DNA of 64,000 bases, from assembly GCA_002070455.1 (NCBI GenBank), contig MWDG01000006.1:1-64000 (forward strand). Reading direction: 5' to 3'. The notes under the pieces were generated by a model that did not search any database, was not told where the DNA came from, and worked only from the letters and a program-made list of their open reading frames with translations. A program made the position numbers and the translations under genes. Positions 44,305 through 48,053 of the stretch are shown piece after piece (positions within the stretch are counted from its first letter, which is position 1; each line of letters starts with the position of its first letter). The DNA comes from Deltaproteobacteria bacterium ADurb.Bin151 (GTDB lineage: Bacteria > Desulfobacterota > Syntrophia > Syntrophales > Smithellaceae).

Positions 44305-44793
44305 TCAGGTAAAGTCCCGGACAGGATTTTGGCGGGTTGAATCGGATTCGCGGCTGACGGTTTTGTTTCGTTCTTCCACGGCATCTTCGATGGCAAGGCA
44401 AAACTGTTTTTGATCAAATGGTTTTCTCACCAGCAGGTGAACGTCTTTTGTGTCTTTGCGGGTCAGGGTCAATTGACCATGTCCTGTCATGATGATAAAT
44501 GTCTTATCCTGGTTGCACTGCTTCATGTTGGATATCAGCTGGCAGCCGTTCATATCCGGCATGCACTGATCGGAAATGATGATGTCCACTTCATCGCTGT
44601 GGTTCGTATACCACTGAAGGGCGTCCTTCGGATCATTGAATAAGACCGTAGTGTGCCCGAGGTTTTCCGCGTATTTTTCCATAATATCAAGCATGTATTT
44701 CTCATCATCCACGACAAGGAGCTTTCGCGGATCCGGCGGATCTTTCGGGAGCCTGAAAGTTTCCTCCTTTGCATCCGACACGAGCAGGTCCAT
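44305..44793 (-). CDS. Receiver domain, C-terminal remainder of a split hybrid histidine kinase
   Basis: A 162-aa frame dominated by a receiver domain: acidic pair in VVDDEKYMLDI (Asp29-Asp30), phospho-acceptor Asp75 in ISDQCMPDMNG and the Lys of VRKPF. It is in the same frame as the histidine kinase upstream; reading back from this ATG without a stop reaches the TGA at 44953-44955 and includes the kinase GGSGIGL box. The ATG has no good ribosome binding site, so independent translation is doubtful. Confidence 0.7.
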   Translation of the reverse strand: MDLLVSDAKEETFRLPKDPPDPRKLLVVDDEKYMLDIMEKYAENLGHTTVLFNDPKDALQWYTNHSDEVDIIISDQCMPDMNGCQLISNMKQCNQDKTFIIMTGHGQLTLTRKDTKDVHLLVRKPFDQKQFCLAIEDAVEERNKTVSRESDSTRQNPVRDFT

Positions 44794-44952
44794 TTCAAAA
44801 GTTGTCCAGGTCTTTTCTCTGTTGATTTTCGAGGCCGGATCGCCGTTCTTTTGCGGGGGGGTGAAATCGTTGGTGTAGCGGATGCGTGCTCCGAAACGGT
44901 CCAGGGTGCTCTTGACGGCCAGCAGGCCGATCCCGCTTCCACCATGGGTGGA

Positions 44953-46875
44953 TCACACTTTTTCATTGAACAGATGAGTCAGGATGTGGTCCGGCACCGG
45001 CGGACCGTCGTTTGAGACGCGCAGGCGGATAACATCCTCGGAGTTCACGTTTTTCTCTTTTTCCCAGGATATGCAGATAAGGTTTGTGCAGCCCCGGGGA
45101 AATTCGGCAACTGCGTTGTTGATCAGATTCACAACAATTCCCATGAATTCTCCTGCATTGCCAAAAACCGTGGCTGATGGTGAAGCATCGCATATTTCCA
45201 CAGAGACGGTTTTACCCTGATCCTGTGCCATGGGTTTGTATTGTCCCTTGGAGAGAGACACGGCCCCGCGGATGGCCGGCCGGATTTCAAAACTGTTCAG
45301 GGAATGGTCCTGTTTCACGTAATCCCGGATTCCCGATGTTACATCGCGGATGATCAGTCCTCCATTATTGACATAGGTAAGATATTTACGTGAGGCCTGT
45401 ATGTTTGTTTTCAGATCTACGAGATGATCCGGAAGTTTTTCATGGAGGAATTCCTCCAGATGGCGGGAAATGCCCTTACTCCCAGTCTTGCAGGAGCGGA
45501 TCGTATCGATCAGTTTCATTCGCCCGGTATCGATCTTATCGATGGTTCTTTCGCTCTTGCCCAGGTACATTTTCGTAAGATCCTGTCCGCCGGTTACTCC
45601 TCCCAGCGCATTATTGATGTCGTGGCTCAGACCGGCAACCAGTGCGGAAATGGCCTTTTCGGTTGATGCCTGGGCCAGTGCCGCATCTTTGGTGATAATT
45701 TCTTCCTCCATCTGCTTCAGATCAGATATGTCTTCTGATATTCCCAGCAAATATTCCAGCTGACCACGTTGATCGTATAGCGGGATCAGGTTGGACTTCA
45801 TTGTTTTCATCCGGCCGTCTTTTTCGGGTACCGTGTGTTCAAATATGACAGCGGATCCTGTGCTGAGGGCCGCGTCTTCAAACTCGGAGAGGACGCTGGA
45901 GAGCATGGGTGAATTTTTATGCAGATCATCCCACATTTTGTTTCCAATCACATACATCCCCTCTTTCTTGTAGTCTTTCATGTAAACCGCCAGAGGGAAG
46001 TTCTCGAACACCTTGGACATCAAATCACGGCTTTTAATGAGTTCAAGCTCGGCTTCTTTATGTTCGGTAATGTTCCTGGAGGAACAAATGACAGAGGCCA
46101 CCCTGCCATTTTGCGCTTTTATAGGTTCGATGCTGGTCATGTAATACCGCACACTGTCTGATCTCGGCAATTGCATTTCGATGACATTGTGATTGCCGCT
46201 CTCGAAGACTTCATTGACCATGACGCTTATTTTATCAGCTTCATACCGGGTGAATATGTGCCAGACAGATTTTCCCATGATATCTTCAGAAGTCGTGTTC
46301 ACGGCACGGGCAAATGCACGGTTGACGTATTTGAATATACACTGGAGATCAAGGGTGAATATCGGGTCGTTGGATTCTTCGAGCAGGACGAGATATTTCT
46401 GTTCACTTTCTCGTAGCTTTTCTTCCATCAGTCCCTGCCGGGTTATGTCTTTTTGCATGATAATAATTCGAACAGGGTTGCCTTCGTTCGTGATCGCTTT
46501 GGCCACATTTAAAACGCGCCGGTAAGTGCCGTCGCTGTGCAGGATGCGGTACTCACATTTGCTTATTTTGCTCCGCTTTTTTCGAAGAGAGGATAAAGAG
46601 TTGAATGCGTCCTCTCGGTCATCGGGGTGCAGCATCCTTTTCCAATCATAGATGTCATTCCCTAATCGGGTCGTTTCATAGCCCAGCATGATTTTCCACA
46701 TTTTAGAAAAACGGACTTTGTTGTTTTTTAAATTCCACTCCCAGAGACCATTGCCTGCATCTTCGAAAGCAGTCTTAATAATATCCCTGCATTCCATGAT
46801 GGCTCGCTCTTCCCACCCGCGGGATAATGCGTTAGTTAAGCCGTCACGTATTTTGTCAAGATTGGAAATCGGCAT
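44953..46875 (-). CDS. Soluble PAS-PAS-PAS histidine kinase, ended early by in-frame TGA
   Basis: A 640-aa cytoplasmic sensor kinase. Three PAS domains (about 30-150, 155-275 and 285-395) come before a dimerisation domain with phospho-acceptor His418 (GLSHDINNALGG). The ATP-binding domain has the N box (VNLINNAV) and G1 box (NDGPPVP) but stops at FNEKV. The next in-frame codons encode the missing GGSGIGLLAVKSTL G2 box and then a receiver domain. Without readthrough the kinase would lack its G2 box and probably be inactive. No membrane segment is present. Confidence 0.8.
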   Translation of the reverse strand: MPISNLDKIRDGLTNALSRGWEERAIMECRDIIKTAFEDAGNGLWEWNLKNNKVRFSKMWKIMLGYETTRLGNDIYDWKRMLHPDDREDAFNSLSSLRKKRSKISKCEYRILHSDGTYRRVLNVAKAITNEGNPVRIIIMQKDITRQGLMEEKLRESEQKYLVLLEESNDPIFTLDLQCIFKYVNRAFARAVNTTSEDIMGKSVWHIFTRYEADKISVMVNEVFESGNHNVIEMQLPRSDSVRYYMTSIEPIKAQNGRVASVICSSRNITEHKEAELELIKSRDLMSKVFENFPLAVYMKDYKKEGMYVIGNKMWDDLHKNSPMLSSVLSEFEDAALSTGSAVIFEHTVPEKDGRMKTMKSNLIPLYDQRGQLEYLLGISEDISDLKQMEEEIITKDAALAQASTEKAISALVAGLSHDINNALGGVTGGQDLTKMYLGKSERTIDKIDTGRMKLIDTIRSCKTGSKGISRHLEEFLHEKLPDHLVDLKTNIQASRKYLTYVNNGGLIIRDVTSGIRDYVKQDHSLNSFEIRPAIRGAVSLSKGQYKPMAQDQGKTVSVEICDASPSATVFGNAGEFMGIVVNLINNAVAEFPRGCTNLICISWEKEKNVNSEDVIRLRVSNDGPPVPDHILTHLFNEKV

Positions 46876-47270: not shown

Positions 47271-48053
47271 ATGTCGAACAGTTCTGCTAAAAATCTCAAA
47301 AACACCTTAAGCAATCTGACTCTTGCCGCCAAGGCACTCGAAGTCAAAATTGAACAGGCCGATTCCTCCACCCGGGCCAATCTGAAAAATGCTTTAGACG
47401 GTTTAAACGCTACTATCAAAAGACTGGAATTCGAAATTAAGCAGGCTGAAGCTCCACCTGATAAAATTGGACAGATCCTTGTTTCGAGAAACATTATCAC
47501 GGCAAATGATTTGAACGAAGCCATGAAAAGAAAAAGGAAAGAGCCGACCAAGTATTTGGGACAAATCCTGTGTGAGATGGGGCTTCCGCAATCCAAAATC
47601 ATGCACTGGATTTACTACAGCAACAAAAGGAAGCAAATCGGTCAAATTCTTGTGGAACTGAACATCATAACGGAGGCGCAATTAAGAGAGTGTCTCCTGC
47701 AACAAAAGGACATGAAGCAGCAAGGCATATTTGCCCCCCTGGGTTCTGTGCTGATTAAAAACAGGATGATCAGTGAAGAGAGCTTTATGATCGCGCTTTC
47801 CGCTCATTTCAGTATGCCGATTATATCTCTGAAGGGCCATACGCTATCCCCTGCAATGCAAAAGGTGGTAGGGGAGAAATATGCTTTCAGGCATCGAATT
47901 GTCGTTTTGAGTGATGATTCCGATCATGTGAAAGTGGCTCTCGCGGAGCCCCATCTTGAGATTATTGGTTATCTTGAGAAGGCGATGCCTAGAGGTAAAC
48001 ATATCATGTTTTACCTAGCCAGAGAATCGGAAATAGAAGACTGTTTTCACTGA
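47271..48053 (+). CDS. Stand-alone MshEN / GspE N-terminal domain protein
   Basis: A 260-aa protein. Residues 1-62 are predicted coiled coil (KALEVKIEQA and following). Three MshEN-like repeats follow: IGQILVSRNIITANDLNEAM, a divergent one around LGQILCEMGLP, IGQILVELNIITEAQL and LGSVLIKNRMISEESF. This domain normally caps type II secretion or type IV pilus ATPases and in MshE binds c-di-GMP. Here no ATPase is attached, so it is a possible free c-di-GMP receptor. It diverges from the split histidine kinase. The ribosome binding site is weak. Confidence 0.7.
   Translation: MSNSSAKNLKNTLSNLTLAAKALEVKIEQADSSTRANLKNALDGLNATIKRLEFEIKQAEAPPDKIGQILVSRNIITANDLNEAMKRKRKEPTKYLGQILCEMGLPQSKIMHWIYYSNKRKQIGQILVELNIITEAQLRECLLQQKDMKQQGIFAPLGSVLIKNRMISEESFMIALSAHFSMPIISLKGHTLSPAMQKVVGEKYAFRHRIVVLSDDSDHVKVALAEPHLEIIGYLEKAMPRGKHIMFYLARESEIEDCFH

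Follow-up and report, generated by a model that had tools for sequence, protein, structure and literature searches.

A single in-frame TGA, probably a recent nonsense mutation, interrupts a hybrid histidine kinase gene in a deltaproteobacterial genome

In the draft genome of Deltaproteobacteria bacterium ADurb.Bin151, a gene with the layout PAS-PAS-PAS-kinase-receiver carries a lone in-frame TGA, codon 641, that splits it in two, and the interruption is probably a recent nonsense mutation that has left an ordinary, recently broken gene. The gene occupies positions 46875-44305 on the minus strand of the window, the 64,000-nucleotide stretch of DNA that was analyzed as a whole. In the history that we favor, a C-to-T transition would have turned an arginine CGA codon into TGA in the part of this three-PAS hybrid kinase gene that encodes the ATP lid. 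Ribosomes should then stop at the TGA and release a 640-amino-acid PAS protein that lacks both the G2 box and the receiver, and the kinase output would be lost; efficient termination and a dead kinase are what we infer. We prefer a nonsense mutation because one event explains the data and new biology is unnecessary. The T at this codon could alternatively be a strain polymorphism. The likelihoods that we attach to this and to the other readings below are judgements and were not computed.

The interrupted frame opens with an ATG at 46875, and the upstream open reading frame encodes 640 amino acids. Beyond the TGA, the same frame stays open for 215 codons with no frameshift until it ends at a second TGA (44307-44305), as the original prediction had described. 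The H box (GLSHDINN), N box (NLINNAV), and G2 box (GGSGIGL) are legible in the translation, and the key residues of the receiver (DD, D, T, and K) are intact. The G2 box had been placed directly after the stop; it does lie downstream, but three residues (STH) intervene. A domain search bore out the claim that reading through the stop restores the missing end of the kinase and the receiver. HATPase_c (PF02518) was matched in the read-through product only (E value of 2.1e-9), together with PAS matches and the receiver (PF00072; 2.3e-16); it was not recognized in the 640-amino-acid product alone, and the 162-amino-acid downstream open reading frame comprised only the receiver domain. No plausible ribosome binding site was found for that frame, which begins at 44793, in agreement with the original prediction, and its first ATG is 53 codons beyond the kinase TGA. 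The coordinates are collected in Table 1. Adjoining the kinase gene at 47271-48053 is an open reading frame of 260 amino acids, which, in our own reading of the sequence, presumably resembles the N-terminal domain of type II secretion/pilus ATPases.

Table 1. Positions in the window of the interrupted kinase gene and associated elements
Feature	Position	Strand	Remarks
5' part of interrupted hybrid histidine kinase gene	44953..46875	-	three PAS domains, H box, N box, G1 region; 640 aa; TGA at end
In-frame TGA codon	44953..44955	-	aligned codon CGA in G017, CGT in G011
3' part of kinase gene, same frame	44305..44952	-	STH, then G2 box GGSGIGL, end of ATPase domain, receiver; TGA at end
Receiver-only open reading frame, 162 aa	44305..44793	-	own start required; no ribosome binding site seen
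Hairpin TCCACC-CAT-GGTGGA directly 3' of TGA	44938..44952	-	6 bp; two of six pairs from synonymous changes on own branch
Second hairpin GAuCGGCC-UGCU-GGCCGUC	44914..44932	-	formal bSECIS fit; perfected by one synonymous change

Among 155 genomes of the order, the kinase gene was found in three, including the present genome, and the TGA was seen in the present genome alone. The two orthologues (G017 and G011) also come from public metagenome-assembled contigs of Deltaproteobacteria. Over the last 445 residues, the identity is 88% for G017 and 70% for G011, and the latter is 62% identical over the first 640 residues. Neither is interrupted at the site, and each reads V-R-STHGGSGIGL there. The interrupted frame is not a product of chance, given that the two orthologues read on through the site and can be aligned on either side of it. 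The original prediction had proposed that the codon be compared in relatives, and the arginine found in both (CGA in G017 and CGT in G011) supports a nonsense mutation; it points to a single C-to-T change on the branch of the present species. By parsimony, one such transition on its own branch would be the simplest history of the stop. The kinase gene of G017 is syntenic with the window, since acyl-CoA-ligase-like, moeA-like, and nadA-like genes adjoin the kinase in both. A cation-efflux-like gene (L049:1804-2847) lies between the kinase and ligase genes in G017 and is absent from that place in the window. A scan of genome contigs returned only the two orthologues already found by the genome search, and the search of the 155 genomes of the order gave one further, distant match (27% identity). 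No relative was found in viral contigs. Plasmid matches obtained by tblastn were distant kinases only (<60% identity).

We then compared constraint on the two sides of the stop. Between the present gene and G017, dN/dS was 0.10 before the stop and 0.17 after it. On the gene's own branch, synonymous and nonsynonymous changes numbered 27 and 14 before the stop and 16 and 17 after it, a difference that is not significant (Fisher P = 0.16); the corresponding counts on the sister branch were 13 and 9 before the site and 14 and 10 after it. The part after the stop carries no further lesion. As constraint has not measurably been lost and no second lesion has accumulated, the stop appears to be recent. 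Selection acted through most of the branch, and the data fit a very young stop and a tolerated stop alike.

The original prediction had also pointed to selC and selAB, and this check was positive: selA, selB, selC, and selD are all present in the genome, with a tRNA-Sec that scored 76 bits and has the anticodon TCA. SelD (L121, G000:C179:490-1416) has its own in-frame TGA after VQGAG, which we take to be the arrangement of known selenocysteine-containing SelD proteins. Four genes for molybdopterin oxidoreductases of the formate dehydrogenase type (L054, L055, L058, and L059) likewise contain an in-frame TGA, and relatives of the first of these retain it across the genus and order. The sel genes and these in-frame TGA codons make it very probable that selected TGA codons are decoded as selenocysteine in this cell, so that selenocysteine recoding of the kinase retains a small probability. 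At the four dehydrogenase sites, loops of the GG type (GGUCU or GGCUCU) lie 18 to 23 nt past the TGA, and the SelD hairpin has GG in its loop region. The tRNAs and other selenoproteins of the genome were sampled by searches.

Two hairpins follow the kinase TGA. The 6-bp one directly 3' of it had been noted in the original prediction and is indeed present; as a SECIS element it was rejected, since its apical loop is just 6 nt from the TGA and therefore too near. It is the second one, further on and not mentioned there, that fits the SECIS model. This hairpin has a CGGCC-UGCU-GGCCG core, a bulged U, and two more pairs below. The published limits for a bSECIS are a loop of 3 to 9 nt, a stem of 4 to 16 bp, a G among the first two loop positions, a spacing of 16 to 37 nt, and an energy of -7.5 or lower (PMC13188914), and the second hairpin falls within them (5-bp stem, loop UGCU, spacing of 28 nt after the TGA, and -8.9 kcal/mol). 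Neither orthologue gave a fit at the aligned site. For a base rate, a virtual TGA was set at each codon of 13 gene segments within the window. This revealed a fit at 122 of 5143 coding positions (2.4%), 19 of them as strong as the kinase site or stronger, and at none of the 28 CGA codons in these segments. Three substitutions built the hairpins, all of them synonymous and all derived on the gene's own branch. When three random synonymous changes were introduced into the G017 sequence in simulations, 1.9% of the runs yielded a bSECIS-type hairpin, and 0.2% reached the stability of the observed fold. The 48 nt after the TGA had the lowest folding energy among 413 overlapping windows in the comparable part of the gene and were 7.6 kcal/mol more stable than in G017, the third-largest gain of the 413. 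These base-rate, simulation, and ranking figures are suggestive; they are post hoc, having been obtained after the hairpin was noticed, and the windows overlap. Shuffle z-scores for folding around the TGA were unremarkable (-0.89 and 0.22), which weakens the argument from structure. An Rfam search over 44700-45100 at permissive thresholds gave chance matches only.

The full selenocysteine system in the cell counts against a nonsense mutation, as does the fold immediately after the TGA, the lowest in energy of all those ranked. Such a fold is not what pure coincidence would lead one to expect, although it was noticed afterwards. If SelB bound the hairpin 28 nt downstream, a full-length kinase would be made with selenocysteine in its ATP lid, perhaps responsive to redox state or selenium. 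We retain selenocysteine insertion as a highly improbable alternative on account of the machinery that the genome encodes and of a hairpin that the measured base rate marks as unusual. Against it, the ancestral residue is arginine, and no cysteine was seen at the aligned position among the few homologues inspected (phenylalanine or serine in the few distant kinases), while nearly all known prokaryotic selenoproteins have cysteine counterparts (PMC13188914). The UGCU loop has no GG motif, unlike the five genuine sites in the genome, and departs from the common apical loop pattern G[G/U], the spacing exceeds that at the dehydrogenase sites, and TGA and hairpin together are confined to one genome. 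In a review of prokaryotic selenoproteins, a text search found kinases named only as PSTK (PMC13188914). It would be a long shot that the gene is a newly born selenoprotein; TGA would then have replaced an arginine codon, synonymous substitutions on that branch would have assembled a SECIS-like hairpin, and the full-length kinase would appear only when selenocysteine is available. Were the hairpin to recruit SelB, a selenocysteine site would have been born at a non-cysteine position and two-component signalling would be tied to selenium supply; if the stop is a nonsense mutation, it marks one more decaying sensor kinase, of little import.

The original prediction had set a nonsense mutation beside readthrough or reassignment of the stop. 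The arginine codons favor the former, and genome-wide reassignment of TGA is excluded, since a TGA also terminates the kinase frame. Stem-loop-assisted readthrough by a near-cognate tRNA, yielding a little full-length kinase and much truncated sensor, would accord with the strong, newly derived hairpins and with a downstream frame that still appears constrained. We consider it very unlikely: that constraint is explained equally well by a young mutation, tRNA-Trp has the normal CCA anticodon, and the proposed check for TGA suppressors turned up no suppressor or extra TCA tRNA besides tRNA-Sec among the tRNA loci scanned (most of 43 matches). An error of consensus or assembly, with an intact gene in the population and a T that is a miscalled or minority base, is unlikely as well. 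In its favor, the assembly is a draft in 285 contigs, its contamination is estimated at 4.2%, and the codon is one base away from that of the closest relative. On the other hand, the TGA lies outside any homopolymer, the three nearby synonymous changes show genuine divergence of the region, and a codon-usage scan of the window found no other interrupted genes, the other flagged stops being natural gene ends.

Among bacteria, in-frame stops are widespread in genes that are otherwise under constraint, and such stops tend not to last (Belinky et al. 2021, PMC7918605). The kinase gene resembles such single-stop pseudogenes in having one stop, an otherwise intact and constrained sequence, and a sense codon in close relatives; it differs in that the stop is known from one genome alone. 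With bacterial selenoproteins that use a bSECIS, such as the FdhA-type proteins and SelD of the same genome, it shares an in-frame TGA, the selenocysteine machinery, and a stem-loop at an allowed distance. Unlike them, it has arginine in its relatives and a UGCU rather than a GG-type loop, is species specific, and encodes a kinase for signalling instead of a redox enzyme. Read through, it matches PAS hybrid sensor histidine kinases (PAS_3, PAS_9, PAS_4, HATPase_c, and Response_reg) in domain order and core motifs, whereas the stop here takes away the G2 box and the receiver.
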